From Mariprofundaceae bacterium (GTDB taxonomy: Bacteria; Pseudomonadota; Zetaproteobacteria; Mariprofundales; Mariprofundaceae), in NCBI GenBank assembly GCA_030950925.1, contig JAUZQO010000024.1, positions 1 through 64,000 of the forward strand: DNA of 64,000 nt, read 5' to 3'. The position numbers were made by a program, and so were the translations under genes. Positions within the stretch are counted from its first letter, which is position 1, and every line of letters starts with the position of its first letter. Positions 12,863-55,590 of the stretch are shown here, in pieces. The notes below the pieces were generated by a model. It ran no database searches. It was given only the letters and a program-made list of their open reading frames with translations, and was not told the DNA's origin.

Positions 12863-13021
12863 GTGCGGTTCACCACCAAAGAAGTTGGTAAAGGCAAAGG
12901 GCTAAGTTTAGCTGTGACTTCTGGTATTATTGAACAACATCAAGGTGATTTCCATTTGAAAAGCATGTTGGGTGAAGGAACGGTGGTACATATTTTCTTG
13001 CCTGCCATGGTGGTGGCATGA
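12863..13021 (+). pseudogene. Remnant of a sensor histidine kinase C terminus
   Basis: An open frame of about 52 codons encodes only the last part of a HATPase_c domain. FTTKEVGKGKGLSLAV matches the usual FTTK..G.GTGLGL G2 box, then GIIEQHQGDF, then a GEGTVVHIFLP ending typical of kinase C termini. There is an in-frame stop at 12851-12853 and no ATP-binding N box or dimerisation domain upstream, so the gene is broken. Its TGA overlaps the next gene's ATG by 4 bases, suggesting it was once the upstream cistron of that operon. Confidence 0.75.
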
Positions 13022-13707
13022 TGGATATGATGATTGTGGTGATGTGCAAAGCACCGATGCAAGGTAAGGTAAAAACGCGATTGATGACGAAGTATTCAGC
13101 CTTGGAAGCCATGCAATGGCATGAAGCCATGGCATATACCGTTATTGAACGTGCGAAGCGGATGTTTACGGATGTTGTCATTGCCACTGATGATGTGAAA
13201 CATCCATTTTTCAAACTATTTGAACTGCCTTTGTTGGCACAAGGCGTGGGTGATTTGGGTGCCAGAATGGGACGCATGATGCAGCAAGTTTGTCCCAATG
13301 ATGAAGCAGTATTGTTTTTAGGAACGGATTCGCCGCACATGCAAGACATACGTTTACTGCAAGCTGTGGATGCGTTGCAAACGCATGATGTGGTATTGGG
13401 TGCAGTCGAAGATGGTGGTTATGATTTGATTGCCATGCGCAAACCCAGTGCTGCGATGTTGCAGGGTGTGGATTGGGGTACAGAAAAAGTTTTGCAGCAA
13501 AGTGTGAACAAGGCGGATGCACTTGGTTTAAGTTATCATATATTGAGTGTCAGTTTTGATGTTGATACACCCGAGATGCTGGAGCGAGCCATCCAAATGG
13601 GATGGGTCAAGGAGATTGAGTATGAAAGTAGATCGTCATCCTCGCATACCACACCCTCGTCACCCTCGCGTGCTTGTGTCGAGGGTCTATCGTCAGATTC
13701 CCAATAA
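13018..13707 (+). CDS. DUF2064 / TIGR04282-type GT-A glycosyltransferase-like protein
   Basis: Resembles the GT-A fold nucleotidyl/glycosyl transferases annotated as the arsenosugar-biosynthesis family (TIGR04282, DUF2064). Visible motifs are the nucleotide-binding CKAPMQGKVKTRLM near the N terminus, LFLGTDSPHM (the DxD-like metal site) near residue 105, and GAVEDGGYDLIAM. 229 residues. The last 25 or so codons, from about 13634, lie in repeat DNA and give a Ser-rich tail (SRSSSSHTTPSSP) not expected in the family, so a repeat insertion appears to have replaced the native 3' end. The substrate cannot be told from sequence. Confidence 0.78.
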   Translation: MMDMMIVVMCKAPMQGKVKTRLMTKYSALEAMQWHEAMAYTVIERAKRMFTDVVIATDDVKHPFFKLFELPLLAQGVGDLGARMGRMMQQVCPNDEAVLFLGTDSPHMQDIRLLQAVDALQTHDVVLGAVEDGGYDLIAMRKPSAAMLQGVDWGTEKVLQQSVNKADALGLSYHILSVSFDVDTPEMLERAIQMGWVKEIEYESRSSSSHTTPSSPSRACVEGLSSDSQ

Positions 13708-14551: not shown

Positions 14552-15732
14552 TGATAAAAAACTTTGATTTTGCAGCGACACCACATATTCATTTTGGTGT
14601 TGGGCAACGTGCCTTGTTGCCAGATGTGTTGCGTAGCTTGGGTTCGCGTGTGTTGTTGGTGACAGGTGGAGCATCTTTTGATGATTCGCTTTTGTGCCAA
14701 GATATGCAAGAAAAACTGGCAGCTTTGTTCACATTGTATCGGGAGAGTTTATCGGGCGAACCGTCACCTGCTTGGGTGGATGATGTGGTGGCACGCTACC
14801 ATGGTAAAGCTGTGGATGTTGTGCTTGCCATTGGTGGTGGCAGTGCTGTGGATGCTGGCAAAGCTGTGGCAGGTTTGTTGCCCACGGGTGATTCGGTGAT
14901 GGCATACCTTGAAGGTGTGGGCGAAGGAAAAATATTTGCAGGTATCACCACACCCTTGATTGCCATGCCAACCACAGCAGGCACGGGGGGGGAAACCAGT
15001 AAGAACGCTGTGCTTTCAGTGGTTGGAGAACATGGTTTTAAAAAATCTTTTCGTGATGTGTCATTGGTGCCACAACACATCATTCTTGATCCTGAATTGG
15101 TATTAACGTGTCCAGCCCATGTCACCGCTGCATGTGGGATGGATGCTTTCACGCAGTTGTTGGAATCCTATGTTTCTCAAACATCCAGCCCCATGACCGA
15201 TGCCTTGGCATGGAGTGGCTTGCAGCGTATTCGTGATGGTTTATTGCTTGCGGTGACCGATGGGCAAAACATTGAAGCGCGTTCAGCCATGCTTTATGCC
15301 TCATCCCTTTCAGGTTTAACACTTGCCAATGCAGGTTTGGGTTCGGTGCATGGTTTGGCATCGCCGTTGGGTGCATTTTTTCCGATTCCGCATGGTGTGG
15401 CATGCGGCGCATTGCTTTACGAAGCTGTGCGTTTGAATATCGAAGTGATGCGTGAGCGCGATAACGATAATGTTGCATTGAAGAAATATGCCGATGTTGG
15501 ACGTTTGTTTTCTCGGAATATGGGTTTGAATGATGTCACAGCACAAGATGCATTGCTTGTCATATTGAAGTCCTATGCTTGCCAACTCAAGATGCCAAAA
15601 CTCTCCGATTGGGGGGTGAAAGGTGCTGATATAGAGCGGTTGGTTCGCCATATCAGTGGTGGCAGCATGGCAGGTAACCCTGTAGTTTTGACACATCATG
15701 AACGGGTTCTTTTGTTACAACGGGTGATTTAA
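14548..15732 (+). CDS. Iron-containing alcohol dehydrogenase
   Basis: Group III (iron-activated) NAD(P)-dependent alcohol dehydrogenase of 394 residues. GGGSAVDAGKAVA binds the dinucleotide diphosphate, PTTAGTGGETSKN is the family signature, and metal ligands are expected in GMDAFTQLLESY and in the His-rich GSVHGLASPLG...FPIPHGVACG segment. Family members act on small alcohols, diols or aldehydes; the substrate is not predictable here. Its TAA shares a base with the apaH ATG (TAATG), consistent with a DUF4197-adh-apaH transcript. Confidence 0.9.
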   Translation: MMIKNFDFAATPHIHFGVGQRALLPDVLRSLGSRVLLVTGGASFDDSLLCQDMQEKLAALFTLYRESLSGEPSPAWVDDVVARYHGKAVDVVLAIGGGSAVDAGKAVAGLLPTGDSVMAYLEGVGEGKIFAGITTPLIAMPTTAGTGGETSKNAVLSVVGEHGFKKSFRDVSLVPQHIILDPELVLTCPAHVTAACGMDAFTQLLESYVSQTSSPMTDALAWSGLQRIRDGLLLAVTDGQNIEARSAMLYASSLSGLTLANAGLGSVHGLASPLGAFFPIPHGVACGALLYEAVRLNIEVMRERDNDNVALKKYADVGRLFSRNMGLNDVTAQDALLVILKSYACQLKMPKLSDWGVKGADIERLVRHISGGSMAGNPVVLTHHERVLLLQRVI

Positions 15733-16553
15733 TGGCAATTTATGTGGTGGGTGATATTCAAGGATGTTACACACCCTTGCGGCGTTTGTTGGACAAGGTG
15801 AAATTTAATCCAAAGCAAGATGTCTTGTGGTGCGTGGGGGATTTGGTCAATCGTGGTTCCGATTCATTGAAAACATTACGTTTTCTCAAGGCTTTGGGTG
15901 ATGCCTGTGTGTGTGTGTTGGGCAATCATGATTTTCATTTGTTGGAAAAAGCCGCAGGTGGGCATGATTATCCACGCGATACACTCACGCAAATATTAGA
16001 TGCACCCGATGCAGATGAATTGTTGGAATGGGTGCGTACTCGTCCGTTGCTGCACCATGATAAGAAAAAAAAATGGTGTATGGTGCATGCAGGTTTGCAC
16101 CCACATTGGACACTCTCTGAAGCCAAACAACGTGCCAAAGCTGTTGAAGCAGTGTTGCGTGGCAAACACTGGCAATCGTTTTGTCAGCAATTGCAACAGG
16201 CAAGGTTTCCAGAGTTACAACCCCAATCCAAGCAAGATAACCTTATCTTCACCGTCGCTGTTTTAACACGCAGCCGATATTGCACACAAAAAGGTCGGTT
16301 TAACTGGGCTGTGCGTTCAGGTGAGGCGGATAATGTGAACGATAAACCGTGGTTTCAACATAAACATTTGGCATGGGCTAAAGATTGTAAGGTGGTGTAT
16401 GGACACTGGGCGGCGATGGGTTTGGTCAACCATGAAAAGCATGTGGTTGGTTTGGATACAGGCTGTGTTTGGGATGGGAAAATGAGCTTGTTGAAACTAA
16501 CACGGCATACGCTTGTATGCGATCAACCACAGATTTTTCAAGTCCAAGCCTAA
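15732..16553 (+). CDS. apaH: Symmetrical bis(5'-nucleosyl)-tetraphosphatase
   Basis: Hydrolyses Ap4A to two ADP, controlling dinucleoside polyphosphate alarmones and Np4-type RNA caps. 273 residues of the calcineurin fold with metal motifs GDIQGCYTPL (residues 7-16), GDLVNRGSDSL, GNHDFHLL and VHAGLHP. GHWAAMGL and GLDTGCVWDG near the C terminus are ApaH-specific. In E. coli apaH sits with ksgA/pdxA; here it follows an alcohol dehydrogenase. A repeat element begins with the base after its stop codon. Confidence 0.94.
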   Translation: MAIYVVGDIQGCYTPLRRLLDKVKFNPKQDVLWCVGDLVNRGSDSLKTLRFLKALGDACVCVLGNHDFHLLEKAAGGHDYPRDTLTQILDAPDADELLEWVRTRPLLHHDKKKKWCMVHAGLHPHWTLSEAKQRAKAVEAVLRGKHWQSFCQQLQQARFPELQPQSKQDNLIFTVAVLTRSRYCTQKGRFNWAVRSGEADNVNDKPWFQHKHLAWAKDCKVVYGHWAAMGLVNHEKHVVGLDTGCVWDGKMSLLKLTRHTLVCDQPQIFQVQA

Positions 16554-16703
16554 CTATAGTAGTCGTTTAAGTATCAATGTAGCCCTCCTACCCGCACGAG
16601 ACACCCACGTCACCCCCGAATGTTTGTGTCGGAGGTCTATGGATAGATACCCGATAGAAGATTTCGGGCATGACGGGATAATTTGATACTTAAACCACTA
16701 TAG
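16554..16703 (+). repeat. Complete MITE-like unit with terminal inverted repeats
   Basis: Best-preserved full unit (150 bp). The left end CTATAGTAGTCGTTTAAGT (from 16554) is an imperfect inverse of the right end ACTTAAACCACTATAG (to 16703). Inside is the two-hairpin core 16608-16675. It fills the whole space between the convergent stops of apaH and the amphi-Trp gene. Confidence 0.85.
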
Positions 16704-16716
16704 CGAATCATACGGG

Positions 16717-17049
16717 TTAAGAAGTCGAACGATTTTTCTTTTTCGATTTTATTTTTTCATTGACCAATAATTTGGAGTGCGTGGTTTGATGTTCCAAATC
16801 ATCATGCCATGTGACACGTAGGCTGATACGATTTCGCCCATCTTCTTGGCTGGCTGAAATTTTGAGATGTAACAAGCCTTCAGCTTGCAATTGGATGTCG
16901 TCAACATCATCGCTGAAATTTAATTCACCGCGTGCAAAACCTTTGCTGATGGCTTCCAGCAATTGGCCAATGCTTTGGCCATCCTGTAAGGATTCATGGT
17001 GGAATTGATGTTTATCGGAGGGTATTTTTAGGGATGAATTTGAGGACAT
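16717..17049 (-). CDS. Small amphi-Trp domain protein
   Basis: Probable 110-residue cytosolic protein. I place the start at the ATG complementary to 17047-17049 because AGGAG lies 7 bases upstream and the previous gene stops one base away. The central FHHESLQDGQSIGQLLEAIS followed by an amphipathic strand region ending in RISLRVTW matches the amphi-Trp domain (TIGR04354, from memory), a small domain linked to the 'GAK' gene set. The C terminus is Lys/Ser rich (KIKSKKKNRSTS). No catalytic motif is visible. Last gene of the six-gene minus-strand block; it could be a carrier or phosphoacceptor, which is inference only. Confidence 0.75.
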   Translation of the reverse strand: MSSNSSLKIPSDKHQFHHESLQDGQSIGQLLEAISKGFARGELNFSDDVDDIQLQAEGLLHLKISASQEDGRNRISLRVTWHDDLEHQTTHSKLLVNEKIKSKKKNRSTS

Positions 17050-17050
17050 C

Positions 17051-18382
17051 TTATGCTCCTGAAATGATGGACATATCATGTTGAATAATGCTTTGTGGGT
17101 GAAAGATTTTGGCGGCATGGTAATCGGTGCTGATACCCAATACATAACCATCGGGGTGAATCAGCGTTGCGCCAGCGCCTTGACCTTGTAAACCTTCTTT
17201 TTGCCGTGAGCAACGATCCAAGGTCACATCGCATTCAAAATGAAACAGTTGTTTACGTAAGGCAATGCGTTGCCCGCGCCGTAAATTCCGATGCCCATGC
17301 ACAATGGCATGGATGCCGAGTTGGCGAGCTTGTTGCCCACCTTTGCCTGTGAGTGGTTTATCAGTATGACGATATTTGGTGCGAATGGTATTGGCAAGTG
17401 AGCCATAATAAAATTCAAAGGGGCTTCCTTGCATGTGTTGTTTGAATTGCTGGTTGATACAAGGGATATCGTAATCGCGCAAAGTATCGGTCATTTGATC
17501 ATCAATGCCTGCGTGAACAAACAAAAAGGAACCTTTGCGATACGCCAAACGCAGTTGTTGGAAAAACCAGTAAAATTCGCCTTGGGGATGTAAAAATAAA
17601 TACTGCCAATGAAGGGCTGCGGCATAGGCTTCACACATGCTTAAATCGTATTTTTTGCAGTGTTTTTTGAATTTTTCCATTTTTTGACGGATTTTATCCA
17701 TTTCACTCTGCATCTTTTCAATGGACATGACGGTTACAGCATGCTCGGGGAATTCTTTCCACCAAGTGGGCATGGGAAATAAATGCTGCATACAGCTTGC
17801 TTCATCGGGAATATCTTGCATGGCTTTGGGGTGACTGAGGTAGGCATCGCGAATTTCATCTAAAAAAGGCACTGCTTTGGCACCCATACGCATGAAAAAA
17901 TGACCATTGCGAACATCACCCGTGTTACCTGCGCTACGCATACCAAACAACACCCGCATATCATGGTTGCCTGCCAACAATCGAACACGCGCGCCTGTCT
18001 GTATAAAGGCATGCAAGTTCCGCAGTAAACCTAAATTACTGGGTCCTTTATCAAAAAAATCACCACCAAATACAAACATCATCTGCTTGCCTTGGGTGTT
18101 TAGTATAAAGGGGTGATCGACATGGTCAGTTTTTTCGACACCACCGCTAGCAAGCAATGAGGCAGTCAGGGCATCGGCATCGGCATGCAAATCAGAAATG
18201 AAAACTGTGGTGCGTTCGGGCCATGTCCAAGTATGCTTTTGCAACAAATATTGTGCATCTTGGCGACATTGATGAAGACTCTTTTTACGTTGACGCAGTC
18301 CATGTTTGCTACAGTCCAACCAATTTTGTGTACTTTGAGGTAAGCCATACTTTTGGGGCAGGGCAAGGTTGATGGGAGACAT
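17051..18382 (-). CDS. Calcineurin-like metallophosphoesterase
   Basis: 443-residue cytosolic phosphoesterase with all dimetal motifs: SDLHAD (63-68), GGDFFDKG (about 106-113), GNHD (138-141), VHAG (about 300) and HGHRN (about 358). It is longer than a simple PPP phosphatase because of a helical insert of about 100 residues (IEKMQSEMDKIRQKMEKFKK, predicted coiled coil) between GNHD and the C-terminal motifs. The substrate is unknown. It is 3 bases from the upstream RHG phosphatase gene and one base from the amphi-Trp gene, so it belongs to the same operon and likely reverses a modification made by the linked kinases. Confidence 0.82.
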   Translation of the reverse strand: MSPINLALPQKYGLPQSTQNWLDCSKHGLRQRKKSLHQCRQDAQYLLQKHTWTWPERTTVFISDLHADADALTASLLASGGVEKTDHVDHPFILNTQGKQMMFVFGGDFFDKGPSNLGLLRNLHAFIQTGARVRLLAGNHDMRVLFGMRSAGNTGDVRNGHFFMRMGAKAVPFLDEIRDAYLSHPKAMQDIPDEASCMQHLFPMPTWWKEFPEHAVTVMSIEKMQSEMDKIRQKMEKFKKHCKKYDLSMCEAYAAALHWQYLFLHPQGEFYWFFQQLRLAYRKGSFLFVHAGIDDQMTDTLRDYDIPCINQQFKQHMQGSPFEFYYGSLANTIRTKYRHTDKPLTGKGGQQARQLGIHAIVHGHRNLRRGQRIALRKQLFHFECDVTLDRCSRQKEGLQGQGAGATLIHPDGYVLGISTDYHAAKIFHPQSIIQHDMSIISGA

Positions 18383-18385
18383 GTT

Positions 18386-19084
18386 CTAATCCGTGTACGT
18401 TGAGCTTGGGCTGCGTATTTTCCAATCTCCCGCTTGCTGCTGCCATACATCACCTTTAGCAGTGAAATAGATGGGTTTTGCGTGGAACATGCTCAGTCGG
18501 GCAATATCCTTAAAGGCTAACATACCTTTATGACATGCTGCATGACGAAAGGCTGCGCCATGCCCGACAAATATTTGTAAAATACCTGCCTCTTGGGGTA
18601 AGGATGTCATCACTTGTTGAATGTAGTTTGCCACACGTTGTCCTGCTTGCATCAACGATTCTGCACCTGGATAGGGCAGTGCATAGTGTGAATCAGATTT
18701 CCAGTTTTGAGGTGGCGCGGGGTAACGCGGGTCGTTCTTCAAAATATCTTCTATGGCTATGGCACTTAAATTGGCAAGACTCCCCACCGAACGTTCAGAC
18801 AAGGCTGGGCTTTCTTGCAAGGCTAGGGTGTGATCCGTTGAAGAAAGTTTTTTAGCCACGATGTTGGCTGTTTGCCACGCCCGCAGAAGGCATGAGCAAT
18901 GCACCGTGGGTGAGATGTGTAAACCATGTACCATGCCAAATGATGCCAGTATCACAGAGGCATCTTTGGCTTGATGCTCACCCAGTGATGAAAGTGCAAA
19001 GGGTTGCATGGCGCTGGGGGTTTGCTCACGTTGGTGATAATCACCATGGCGTATAAAAGCAGCGATATTTCGCCGCTGACTCAT
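18386..19084 (-). CDS. RHG-type histidine phosphatase
   Basis: Histidine phosphatase (phosphoglycerate mutase superfamily) of 232 residues. The phospho-histidine nucleophile is His13 in IRHGDYHQ; SCLLRAWQTA supplies the second phosphate-pocket Arg (68), and His175 in FVGHGAAFRHAA is the second catalytic His. A Ser/Glu pair in ALSERSVGSL fits the general acid position. SixA-like and PGAM-like members cannot be told apart by eye. It overlaps the HprK-related kinase gene by 4 bases (ATGA). Confidence 0.85.
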   Translation of the reverse strand: MSQRRNIAAFIRHGDYHQREQTPSAMQPFALSSLGEHQAKDASVILASFGMVHGLHISPTVHCSCLLRAWQTANIVAKKLSSTDHTLALQESPALSERSVGSLANLSAIAIEDILKNDPRYPAPPQNWKSDSHYALPYPGAESLMQAGQRVANYIQQVMTSLPQEAGILQIFVGHGAAFRHAACHKGMLAFKDIARLSMFHAKPIYFTAKGDVWQQQAGDWKIRSPSSTYTD

Positions 19085-20184
19085 GGATACAAATGGTGGG
19101 TACAGAAATCTGTGATGGCCTCGAAGTTGACCCCACCATGGACTTCATAAACTTGGATGTTTTGAAGCACTTTGGCATAGGTTTTATGAACTAAGTCTGT
19201 ACCTTCACGATAAAAAGAGCCGTCGGCATATTGATAAAAAGGTCCTGAAGATTTCATGATGGCATCGAGTAAGTCAGGTCGTTCATCGGCTTGAATGAGG
19301 TCAATGTAGGTTAGACCTTTGTTTTGATGAGACCAGTTCAGAATAAAGAAATGTTTAAGCATAGGTGATGTGCAAAAACGTGATTTTCCATAAATATCAC
19401 TGATGTCCACATCGTATTTATCTTCCAAATCCCATAATTCGGATGCTGGCAAGGCTTGTAATCGTTGGCTTTTTTCAGGGTCTAAAATATTTTGTAAGTG
19501 TGGGTTGTTTAGCAAGGTGCCTGGATTGACACGCGGAAGCTTGGGGATGCCGCGCGCTTGCACACCATCTCCATCTTGACGTATAAACAAACGATCATTG
19601 GAGACAAAATCAAAACGTTCATCAGCCATCAAGTGCAACATCGTGGTGGATTTTCCACCGCCTGAGAAAGCTGCAAAGGCCATGCCTTCGTTGTCTTTGG
19701 CTAAGGCAGCGGCGTGACAAATAAGGTGACCATTATTTTGTAAATAATTGATATATTGGTTGTTGATAAAATTGATGACTTGATTGCTGTTGGCAAGGCA
19801 TGGTCCTGCTGCAATGCGATCGGTGAGACTTTGTAAAAACATCATGCCCGTTCGCACCTTATAAATCAGGCGCGCACTTTGCATATCGGTATTCATATCA
19901 ATATAGGCATCTTTTTTACCCACTTTGCCAGTGTCGCGTTGCCAATGTTTGAAGGGCAAATCCAAATCCAAGTCGGCGCATTCGATGGCCGTGACATCCA
20001 CGCTTTCCAAACCCGTTGGCTGTTCACAAACGATGTGACGAAAATAATGGTGTAGGACATCCAAAAGCTCTTGGCTATTGCTACGCACATGAACTTCAAG
20101 ATCCCCCAAGGCAAGATACAAAGGGCGATCACATAATCTGGCATTGCCGAGCATGGTTTGACGTAAAGATAATAGGTTTGACAT
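19081..20184 (-). CDS. HprK-related kinase (type B)
   Basis: 367-residue P-loop protein related to HPr kinase/phosphorylase. Walker A AAFSGGGKST ends at residue 180, VSNDRLFIR (194-202) replaces the HprK Asp-containing strand, and GIPKLPRVNPGT (212-223) is characteristic of the HprK-related B group of the GAK system (TIGR04355, from memory). I use the ATG at 20182-20184, preceded by ACGGAG; the open frame extends 23 codons further, but that segment runs into repeat DNA. The HPr-binding N-terminal domain of true HprK is not evident, so the target protein is unlikely to be HPr. Confidence 0.82.
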   Translation of the reverse strand: MSNLLSLRQTMLGNARLCDRPLYLALGDLEVHVRSNSQELLDVLHHYFRHIVCEQPTGLESVDVTAIECADLDLDLPFKHWQRDTGKVGKKDAYIDMNTDMQSARLIYKVRTGMMFLQSLTDRIAAGPCLANSNQVINFINNQYINYLQNNGHLICHAAALAKDNEGMAFAAFSGGGKSTTMLHLMADERFDFVSNDRLFIRQDGDGVQARGIPKLPRVNPGTLLNNPHLQNILDPEKSQRLQALPASELWDLEDKYDVDISDIYGKSRFCTSPMLKHFFILNWSHQNKGLTYIDLIQADERPDLLDAIMKSSGPFYQYADGSFYREGTDLVHKTYAKVLQNIQVYEVHGGVNFEAITDFCTHHLYP

Positions 20185-20247
20185 AAAAACTCCGTAGAAA
20201 TGATGGGCAGTACGGTTTCCTTCGTTGTGTTTTCTCGTCCCCTCCGT

Positions 20248-20315
20248 CGTCACCCTTGCGTGCTTGTATCGAGGGTCTATGGATAGATTCCCGATAGAAG
20301 GTTTCGGGAATAACA
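20248..20315 (+). repeat. Dispersed two-hairpin repeat, copy inside the kinase block
   Basis: Core copy CGTCACCCTTGCG...TTTCGGGAATAACA, with the right boundary degenerated from TGACG. It sits in the 178-base gap between the ATP-grasp gene and the HprK-related gene. If the transcribed hairpins terminate or stabilise RNA, they would split the operon into a two-gene and a four-gene part. Confidence 0.8.
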
Positions 20316-20362
20316 GGCTTGTGGCATGACGACGAAGGTTTTTCGAGAACTGTGCTCAATGG

Positions 20363-21250
20363 TTATTTCAGTTGTTGCATGGCATAAGCGGCATAAGCGG
20401 CTGCGGCATCTAGCCCCATACCCTCTTTGGCACCGCGAAATCCACCAAAAGCCGAAACTTCAAAAACAATGAGCCCATCTTCGGATTCAGCCACATCGAC
20501 TGTGGTAAAATCCATATTAAAAGGGTCTTGGGCGCGATATGCCAAATCAATCCAAGCTTGCGGTGCATTGAAATTGGCATAACGACCGCCACTGTGAATG
20601 GTGGTGTTCCAACTGTTGTTTTGGGTAATGCGTGCATACGCTCCCAAATATTCACCACCCAAAAAAACCATGCCTGCATCGCGCCCTGATAATTCCAGCT
20701 TCTTTTGAATATACATCATGGGATTGCGTGCTTGAAAAGTGGCAATGTGTTGTCGTTGTTGATCCAGATTATCACTGGCGTGGATGACTTCCATGCCGCG
20801 TGCTTTGGTGGAATAAAGCGGTTTAAATACTGCACTGCCGAAACGTTCAATGGCAGATAAAGCCACATCCATGCTTTCTGTGATACAGGTGGGTGGCATA
20901 GGGATATGGTGGTTGCTAAGTGTTACTGTACAGCTAAGGCGATCCATCAAGCGCAAAATATTTAAAGCAGGGCTGAAAATACGTACACCCGCAGCTTCAG
21001 CAACACGTAACAATTCCAGACGATCCAAGGCATGTGGGCTATAGGACTTGCCAATTTTTTTGACCAACAAAGCATCGAATTCGCATAAATCTTTATCGCC
21101 CCAATAAAGTGCTTGGTCTTCTAAATTCAGCCAAACATCTTGAATATCAATGACAGGGCAATGTCCTGTATGTTGGGCAACAGCTTGGGCGAGGGCTTCA
21201 CTGGACCACTTGCCAGGTAGTCCAATCACGCCGATGTAAAGTTGGGTCAC
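20363..21250 (-). CDS. ATP-grasp enzyme of the GAK type
   Basis: 295-residue protein with a RimK/glutathione-synthetase-like ATP-grasp layout: an N-terminal preATP-grasp domain, then FGSAVFKPLYSTKARGM (an ATP-binding Lys and loop, residues about 137-153), YIQKKLELSGRDAGMVFLGG in the middle, and the Mg-binding LIVFEVSAFGGFRG near the C terminus. Family members ligate a carboxylate to an amine or thiol through an acyl-phosphate. It fits the GAK ATP-grasp family (TIGR04356, from memory); the substrate is unknown. Start and stop overlap the neighbouring fusion kinase gene by ATGA. Confidence 0.8.
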   Translation of the reverse strand: MTQLYIGVIGLPGKWSSEALAQAVAQHTGHCPVIDIQDVWLNLEDQALYWGDKDLCEFDALLVKKIGKSYSPHALDRLELLRVAEAAGVRIFSPALNILRLMDRLSCTVTLSNHHIPMPPTCITESMDVALSAIERFGSAVFKPLYSTKARGMEVIHASDNLDQQRQHIATFQARNPMMYIQKKLELSGRDAGMVFLGGEYLGAYARITQNNSWNTTIHSGGRYANFNAPQAWIDLAYRAQDPFNMDFTTVDVAESEDGLIVFEVSAFGGFRGAKEGMGLDAAAAYAAYAMQQLK

Positions 21251-22866
21251 TTAAATAACTCCTTGATGGGTAGTTGATAATCTTCAGGGTGTTGTGGATC
21301 GCATTGAGCGACTTGTTTCAATAAATAATGGGCGCGTAAAAACATGCGTTGTGCTATCTTAGGATCCAGAATAAAACGTGTGGATGTTGCCAAAGACCGC
21401 GCCAACCCTAAGGCTAAGCGAATTTGAAATGAACTGTCACCTTGTTGTGTTGCAAATGTTTGCATGGCTTGATAAAAATCATGGATTTGTTTGCGAATAC
21501 GTCGCCGTTGGGGAGCATCAAACACCTGTAAGCGATCATGTGAAATAATAAATACCGAAACATCCTGTACATAATCCATATGTGTGGAACGGTGTAAATC
21601 AATAAAGTGAATTTGCTTACTGTTGGGTTCATAAAGAATATTATCAATATTGAAGTCACCATGAATCAACATGCTGCGCGGTACTTTTAATTGATATTCC
21701 ACTTTTTCTGCAGCTTGTAGCAAGGCTTCAAATGTTTTGGGTGATTGACCACAAATATACGTTTTACCCTGTCGAAATTCGGGATGAACAGCATAAACAT
21801 CGGCCAATCGTTTGCGTGTCTGACGGACAAAACTGGCGGGTTTGGGGCGTTTCCGCTGCCCATCTCCCCATACTTTTTTCAGGGTTTGGGTTAACGCCTT
21901 GATGGCAGCATGCATCACATGCATGGGTTCGTGCAACACAATGTGTTCAAAGGTCATGCCTTGCAAGTGTTCAATCAACAAGGATGCGCCCTTGTCATGT
22001 TTGTTGTAGGCAAGAATTTGAGGAGCAACACCTGGATAATGATCATGCCATGTTGCCACACCATGCAGTTCTTCTTTGAGTTTGCGTTTATCTCCCGATT
22101 TATAAATGACCAAGGGCTGGCTCTTTGCTTTGTCTTGTAAGGATGAAATACCACTACCAGAACGTGTTTCCGCGACAGATTGAATGTCCATATCAATCAT
22201 ATTTTGTTCACCATTCCAAGCGGAAACTGTATCTTGAAGGGCATGGAAACGCGGCATATCCATCGGTTGTCCGAGGTTGTTGGAAATAATGGCTTCGCTG
22301 ATACGCAATAAACTTTCGCCTGTTTGTTGGCAACAGCGCTGGGTAAAGAGTCCTGCAATCCAAACTTCGGTGTGTTGGCGTTGTTTGAGTTTGGTCGTGT
22401 ATGTTTTTAGCATTTTTTGGCATTGACGGCTGATTTTATGTTCACCCAAGCCCATATGCAGTGCCAAACGTGTATCACGTTGCCAAAAAGCTTGTTCAAG
22501 ATGTTGTAGGCTTTTGTTTAATTGACGTGCAACCAAGCGGTAAGGTGATAAATCAAGGATGTTGAAGTGTTCTGTTTGAACCCATTGCTGCATACATTCA
22601 TGGCATAGGCGTGTGATGTGTACCAAATCCGAAGCGATGGCATTGAGGGTTCGGTGTTGCATCCAAATAAGGGGGGTTGGTTCACTTGTGTTTAATAAAA
22701 TACTGTTTTGAATGCGAAGGTTGAGGTTGTAAATATAGGCACTGCGTTCGCTCATACGCTGGAGGTGTATGGGTTCTGGATCTTGGGTGTATGTTTGTAA
22801 CAGTGAGAGTTGTGTTTCCACTTCAATCATCAGAAATCGTACGTTGTTTTTAAGCGTGTCAGTCAT
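21247..22866 (-). CDS. PhoU-like / aminoglycoside-phosphotransferase-like fusion
   Basis: 539 residues in two parts. Residues about 5-205 are all helical with two PhoU-like three-helix repeats (LNAIASDLVHITRLCHECM; GESLLRISEAIISNN). Residues about 250-530 form an APH-type kinase fold: VIYKSGDKRKLKEE with an ATP-site Lys and Glu, LIEHLQGMTFEHI hinge, HGDFNIDN catalytic loop (402-409) and FIDLHRS (421-427) with the Mg-binding Asp. All key kinase residues are present, so it should be active on a small molecule or protein. The PhoU part may sense phosphate or metal, which is inference. First gene of the minus-strand block, divergent from the thiolase gene. Confidence 0.78.
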   Translation of the reverse strand: MTDTLKNNVRFLMIEVETQLSLLQTYTQDPEPIHLQRMSERSAYIYNLNLRIQNSILLNTSEPTPLIWMQHRTLNAIASDLVHITRLCHECMQQWVQTEHFNILDLSPYRLVARQLNKSLQHLEQAFWQRDTRLALHMGLGEHKISRQCQKMLKTYTTKLKQRQHTEVWIAGLFTQRCCQQTGESLLRISEAIISNNLGQPMDMPRFHALQDTVSAWNGEQNMIDMDIQSVAETRSGSGISSLQDKAKSQPLVIYKSGDKRKLKEELHGVATWHDHYPGVAPQILAYNKHDKGASLLIEHLQGMTFEHIVLHEPMHVMHAAIKALTQTLKKVWGDGQRKRPKPASFVRQTRKRLADVYAVHPEFRQGKTYICGQSPKTFEALLQAAEKVEYQLKVPRSMLIHGDFNIDNILYEPNSKQIHFIDLHRSTHMDYVQDVSVFIISHDRLQVFDAPQRRRIRKQIHDFYQAMQTFATQQGDSSFQIRLALGLARSLATSTRFILDPKIAQRMFLRAHYLLKQVAQCDPQHPEDYQLPIKELFK

Positions 22867-55473: not shown

Positions 55474-55590
55474 TTATAGTTATTTAAGTATGTGACGAAC
55501 CTTTCATTCATTATCCGAATCGTCACCCCCGAATGCGTGTGTCGGGGGTCTATGGATAGATCCCCGATACAATATTTCGGGGATGACGAA
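55474..55590 (+). repeat. Dispersed repeat unit between chemoreceptor genes
   Basis: Left end TTATAGTTATTTAAGTATG at 55474; core 55521-55588 (CGTCACCCCCGAATG...CGGGGATGACG) with compensated stems: CCCCCGA pairs with TCGGGGG and TCCCCGA with TCGGGGA. The right terminal repeat is not clear. Confidence 0.8.

Follow-up and report, generated by a model that had tools for sequence, protein, structure and literature searches.

The six consecutive genes A-B-C-D-E-F that occupy positions 16717-22866 on the minus strand of the window (the whole stretch of 64,000 nucleotides analysed here) are, judged from their sequences, a regular member of the known NCBIfam GAK system, and comparison with related loci identifies a phosphate and polyphosphate context as the best clue to GAK function. 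GAK is already known as a curated gene set; what is new is the functional lead. We propose that the operon forms a phosphate-status-dependent phosphorylation circuit for phosphate and polyphosphate homeostasis, a reading that we consider about evenly poised between right and wrong.

Results

Layout of the operon

Open reading frames and HMM searches confirmed the original prediction of six genes running in one direction, which encode a PhoU-like/APH kinase, an ATP-grasp enzyme, an HprK-related kinase, an RHG phosphatase, a calcineurin-like phosphatase and an amphi-Trp protein. As also predicted, most pairs overlap or lie a few bases apart (A/B and C/D each overlap by 4 bp; D/E and E/F are separated by 3 bp and 1 bp, respectively), with the exception of B and C, which are 178 bp apart (20185-20362) because a dispersed repeat sits between them; the gap is small or nil in most of the relatives compared. 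The repeat, 35 bp long (CCCGAAANCTTCTATCGGGNATCTATCCATAGACC), has three copies in the window, all on the minus strand: one just past F (16634-16668), one in the B-C gap within the operon (20274-20308) and one at 55547-55581. Its CCCGA...TCGGG part is a short hairpin-like inverted repeat of a REP-like element.

Two gene starts required a choice. Gene C most likely starts at 20184, since the structure model shows the first 23 residues of the longer frame as disordered and a ribosome-binding site precedes 20184; gene F most likely starts at 17049, as AGGAG (17056-17060) lies 6 bp upstream and the start falls 1 bp past the stop codon of E.

An apaH gene for a symmetrical Ap4A hydrolase (15732-16553, plus strand; NF001204, 300 bits) flanks the operon in convergent orientation; in the Mariprofundus loci L038 and L050 apaH shares the strand of A and is the gene immediately upstream of it. 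The window ApaH is probably a neighbour and possibly functionally linked to the operon. Four genes off the operon lies a TIGR04282/DUF2064 gene for a CofC-like “arsenosugar” glycosyltransferase (13018-13707), and the closest relative, NORP31 (L041), is alike in this; we considered the gene as a CofD partner and dropped the idea, as it is present, among the compared loci, in the window's genus only.

Identity of the six products

Gene A (21247-22866, minus strand, as are all six) encodes a PhoU-like helical domain (approximately residues 8-220) fused to a kinase of the APH/choline-kinase fold. The N-terminal part matches several PhoU structures by profile (best PDB 1xwm, E 9.4e-12); in Foldseek comparisons of the structure model (pLDDT 88), the N-terminus matches Pseudomonas PhoU (4q25, TMt 0.75) and the model matches APH kinases, in agreement with PF01636 for the kinase part (E 7.7e-10). 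The HxDxxxxN motif (H402/D404/N409) and D423 are invariant among 49 relatives; the window's copy has the PhoU metal motifs in a partly degraded form. PhoU is a classic phosphate-signalling fold. The original prediction was right to name a PhoU-like part of the protein but missed the phosphate and polyphosphate context described below.

Gene B (20363-21250) scores 414 bits against TIGR04356 grasp_GAK (cut-off 300). Among named families MptN is closest (144 bits, cut-off 350) and CofF also matches; all NCBIfam models of RimK, MptN and CofF stay under their cut-offs, whereas in Pfam the general RimK domain, PF08443, does exceed its threshold. Residues D252 and E264 are invariant, as is S266 at the position where the RimK match has Asn (46 relatives). 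The combination of ATP-grasp, RHG and Nudix proteins raised the idea that B is a PPIP5K-like inositol-pyrophosphate kinase, which we rejected: its structure matches are alpha-L-glutamate ligases and related RimK-type proteins only, with no PPIP5K among them, and the PPIP5K parallel thus remains a functional analogy only.

Gene C (19081-20184) scores 358 bits against TIGR04355 HprK_rel_B (cut-off 200) and only 26 bits against HprK_rel_A, and no NCBIfam or Pfam HprK model exceeds its cut-off. A sequence search of the PDB returned P-loop noise only, and it was the fold search that gave the identity: the model (pLDDT 92) matches ATP-PEPCK and HprK/P (Foldseek 2qmh, 1kkm, 3tqf), which places C in the PEPCK/HprK superfamily. 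The P-loop GGGKST, H180 and N219-D220 are invariant among the aligned relatives. HprK acts on HPr, and the operon has no HPr gene; as C is overall nearer to PEPCK than to HprK, its substrate could as well be a small molecule as a protein.

Gene D (18386-19084) encodes an RHG histidine phosphatase (His_Phos_1, PF00300, E 3.5e-17) with invariant R12-H13, R68 and H175. Gene E (17051-18382) encodes a calcineurin-like phosphatase of the ApaH/PPP type (Metallophos, PF00149, E 2.6e-8) that carries the motifs DxH, GDxxDKG and GNHD and in which D64, H66, D108, N139, H140 and H290 are invariant. Gene F (16717-17049) encodes an amphi-Trp protein of 110 amino acids (TIGR04354, 54 bits, cut-off 31). The amphi-Trp proteins of GAK loci share a motif, F-x-H-x-S-L-Q-D, in which Phe and Ser are each kept in 36/36 sequences and His in 34/36, and which is missing from three amphi-Trp proteins of genomes without the GAK ATP-grasp. 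In the window's F the motif His and Ser are residues 52 and 54 of the long frame that starts at 17151, numbers that fall by 34 when counted from 17049.

Across 38-49 aligned relatives per protein, all five enzymes (A-E) keep their catalytic residues and are predicted to be active, which bears out the original picture of two kinases and two phosphatases of unrelated folds in one operon. The scores of B, C and F, each above its cut-off, likewise uphold the earlier assignment to the NCBIfam GAK set.

Conservation and distribution of the gene order

Among 84,980 species genomes scanned, 496 relatives of the ATP-grasp protein came to light. We compared 93 loci (the window, 12 loci from sampled genomes and the 80 best of the 496), some of which duplicate one another. 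The full gene order is present in 60 of the 93, as A-B-C-S-D-E-F in 34 and as A-B-C-D-E-F in 26; most of the other loci end at contig ends, and in a gammaproteobacterial subgroup A-B-D-E precede C-S. Gene S encodes a two-domain fusion of a SixA-like RHG part and a Nudix part. Recurring in 60 loci, the six-gene order is far above chance; it spans Zeta-, Gamma- and Alphaproteobacteria, one Planctomycete and plasmids, including Rhodobacteraceae plasmids with the same six genes that RefSeq annotates as GAK. The original prediction's description of the locus as a variant composition did not hold, the six genes being the conserved core with or without one extra SixA-Nudix gene. Cultured carriers of the operon include Gilvimarinus agarilyticus JEA5 and Roseibium aggregatum IAM 12614.

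Across 61 loci, the between-locus distances of any two of the six proteins are correlated (rho 0.47-0.75), which shows that the block is inherited together, and there is a vertical-looking GAK clade within the Zetaproteobacteria. The distribution is patchy, with the ATP-grasp cut-off exceeded in 12 of 399 sampled genomes of the phylum. Gene S is missing from the window's genus and from Mariprofundus EBB-1; since L046 and L050, two further zetaproteobacterial members of this clade, keep it, the six-gene form in the window's genus probably reflects loss of S.

The CofD-like gene (CofD_rel_GAK, TIGR04357), which the original prediction did not see at the locus, is absent from the window's entire genome. 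It adjoins 34 of the compared loci and occurs in 4 of 13 GAK genomes, being absent from the other 9, the window's included; it is therefore an optional neighbour and not a defining feature. For XXXCH (TIGR04358) no match was obtained in the 13 genomes, where no positive control matched either; named GAK loci of the CofD and XXXCH forms come from Desulfovibrionales. The literature covered contains no discussion of the system, whether under its family names or its TIGR accessions, and the passages covered of a fitness study of Desulfovibrio under phosphate limitation (PMC5193443) show no identifiable GAK gene.

Two further observations concern individual loci. The contig JABDRC010000298.1 (L048), titled as a Halobacteria archaeon MAG, carries an operon and neighbours like those of gammaproteobacterial MAGs and is probably mis-binned. 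Four gammaproteobacterial loci (L095, L072, L098 and L065) have an extra same-strand gene pair upstream of A, one member of which encodes a 500-aa protein resembling glutamine amidotransferases and phosphoribosyltransferases.

Phosphate and polyphosphate genes near the operon

CHAD proteins bind polyphosphate (PMC6537752). Of the 45 dereplicated genomes in a neighbourhood sample drawn from the 80 closest of the 496 ATP-grasp proteins, 9 have a CHAD gene within ~10 kb of the operon, where genome-wide counts would predict 0.13, and 7 have a gene for an NptA-type Na/Pi cotransporter near it, where 0.22 would be predicted. Both are far above chance, by Poisson figures that ignore shared ancestry among the loci. 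CHAD, the Na/Pi transporter and the PHO box were tested after a first listing of neighbours had suggested them, and P values are uncorrected for this choice. The CHAD-adjoining cases comprise two Zetaproteobacteria, Neiella, several gammaproteobacterial MAGs and Rhodopirellula; genome-wide, CHAD is in modest excess (37/45 GAK genomes vs. 60/110 sampled genomes of the phylum). Genes for PPK1, PhoU, PstS and CYTH proteins also lie beside the operon in several loci. The upstream run in Neiella is CHAD-ParA-CYTH, and in Mariprofundaceae S009_29 a double PHO box is followed by CHAD-ParA-A-B-C-S-D-E. Upstream of or within three GAK loci (L047, L074 and L046), a CHAD gene is followed directly by a gene for a ParA-type ATPase; it is possible that the two form a pair that positions polyphosphate granules.

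PHO boxes, defined as a pair of CTGTCAT heptamers spaced four apart with 12 or more of the 14 positions matching, mark the start of the operon in five genera after dereplication, a count that none of 400 permuted heptamers reached (mean 0.18). Where CofD_rel_GAK is unlinked to the operon, it adjoins ugpBA-ugpC, GDPD and a GlpR-type regulator, ugp (glycerol-3-phosphate uptake) being a textbook Pho-regulon operon. One lone amphi-Trp gene, whose genome has no GAK ATP-grasp, adjoins a Ppx/GppA (exopolyphosphatase) gene.

In the window no site at the operon promoter rises above background as a PHO box (the best has 8/14 matches); the window's genome has no CHAD and no SixA-Nudix gene, and PPK1 lies on a different contig from the operon. 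With no recognisable PHO box at the window's operon and no CHAD gene in its genome, the phosphate link is drawn from the relatives.

Discussion

Our proposal of a phosphate-linked phosphorylation circuit is built on the PhoU fusion, the CHAD and NptA neighbours, the PHO boxes in five genera, the CofD-like gene by ugp and the lone amphi-Trp gene by Ppx/GppA, together with the PPK1, PhoU, PstS and CYTH neighbours, the GAK-specific motif of F, the structure matches of C and the correlated gene distances. Against it stand the window's own promoter without a PHO box, its genome without CHAD, CofD_rel_GAK and SixA-Nudix and with PPK1 on another contig, the degraded PhoU metal motifs of its protein A, the frequency of CHAD in the phylum at large, the several loci (Roseibium, plasmids) that lack phosphate neighbours and the overall likeness of C to PEPCK. 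The PhoU part would couple kinase A to cell phosphate. Kinase C would phosphorylate the conserved Ser of the F-x-H-x-S-L-Q-D motif of F, as HprK does on HPr, which is the economical reading of an HprK-like kinase in the same operon as F. HprK/P is driven in reverse by Pi, releasing PPi, and for this reason C, in a phosphate-linked operon, could itself read Pi. The original prediction centred the circuit on a putative product of the ATP-grasp enzyme; in our reading B may use F, or a phosphorylated small molecule, as acceptor of an amino acid, and D and E, plus Nudix and SixA proteins where present, would undo the phosphorylation. All substrates in this scheme are inferred, as are the direction in which the circuit runs and its working in the window's organism.

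The ATP-grasp enzyme also invites a reading as biosynthesis of a cofactor of the F420 or tetrahydromethanopterin type, in which the CofD-like protein transfers a phospho-moiety, B caps the product with amino acids like CofF or MptN, and the kinases and phosphatases trim intermediates. The score of B against MptN, its match to CofF and the CofD-like gene beside 34 loci fit this reading; however, CofD is absent from most of the 13 GAK genomes (the window's included), none of the loci yielded Fo or pterin genes, and the PhoU fusion, the CHAD and NptA neighbours and the PHO boxes are left unexplained, so that we regard it as unlikely. We think no better of a house-cleaning role, in which ApaH-like, Nudix and RHG enzymes would degrade nucleotide alarmones or phosphometabolites that have been damaged (Np4A, diphosphates) and the kinases would salvage the products: E is ApaH-like, Nudix and SixA-Nudix partners occur, and ApaH itself adjoins the operon in six loci, but such a role needs no dedicated ATP-grasp enzyme, no HprK-like kinase and no small partner protein that is not itself an enzyme and carries a strictly conserved motif.

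The HprK-superfamily fold of C, together with the Roseibium and plasmid loci that have no phosphate genes nearby, would suit an HprK/HPr-like carbon-regulation switch for which the phosphate neighbours elsewhere are lineage accidents. As CHAD and NptA are enriched independently, and PHO boxes and the PhoU fusion point the same way, such a switch seems quite improbable to us. Patchy occurrence and plasmid copies could also indicate a mobile or anti-phage defence cassette, but the PADLOC models match none of the six proteins, the phage search found no GAK copies and the zetaproteobacterial clade looks vertical, and we give this reading hardly any credence.

The phosphate circuit can be carried a good deal further, to a version that we offer as a long shot: GAK would be a previously unrecognised bacterial phosphate-signalling pathway, in which a phosphorylated messenger or a protein modification, produced by the PhoU-regulated kinase together with the ATP-grasp enzyme, is removed again by Nudix, RHG and PPP phosphatases, functionally parallel to the eukaryotic SPX/inositol-pyrophosphate system and feeding polyphosphate storage. 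GAK is a curated but unexplained set found in hundreds of genomes (496 relatives of the GAK-type ATP-grasp protein). If true, a role in phosphate or polyphosphate homeostasis would mean that marine bacteria control phosphate at a further, new level, and it would place the amphi-Trp family in a functional context for the first time.

Compared with the GAK system as defined in NCBIfam (TIGR04354, TIGR04355, TIGR04356 and TIGR04357), the window has its three core families above cut-off and a gene order identical to that of named GAK loci and of the plasmid copies that RefSeq labels GAK; it differs in that its genome is without CofD_rel_GAK, which is optional elsewhere, and without the SixA-Nudix gene. 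Kinase A has the full helical fold of the phosphate-signalling protein PhoU at its N-terminus and differs from PhoU in the fused APH kinase and in the partly degraded metal motifs of the window copy. Like the alpha-L-glutamate ligases RimK, MptN and CofF, B is an ATP-grasp protein that aligns over the full length (PDB 4iwx, 70 bits), whereas their metal site reads E-x-N and that of the B family E-V-S in 46/46 relatives. Kinase C shares with HprK/P and ATP-PEPCK the P-loop kinase fold and the conserved His before the P-loop, together with a small partner in the same operon, although the identity is only 10-15% and the partner is an amphi-Trp protein rather than HPr; owing to its extra N-terminal lobe, C aligns over more of its length with ATP-PEPCK than with HprK/P.
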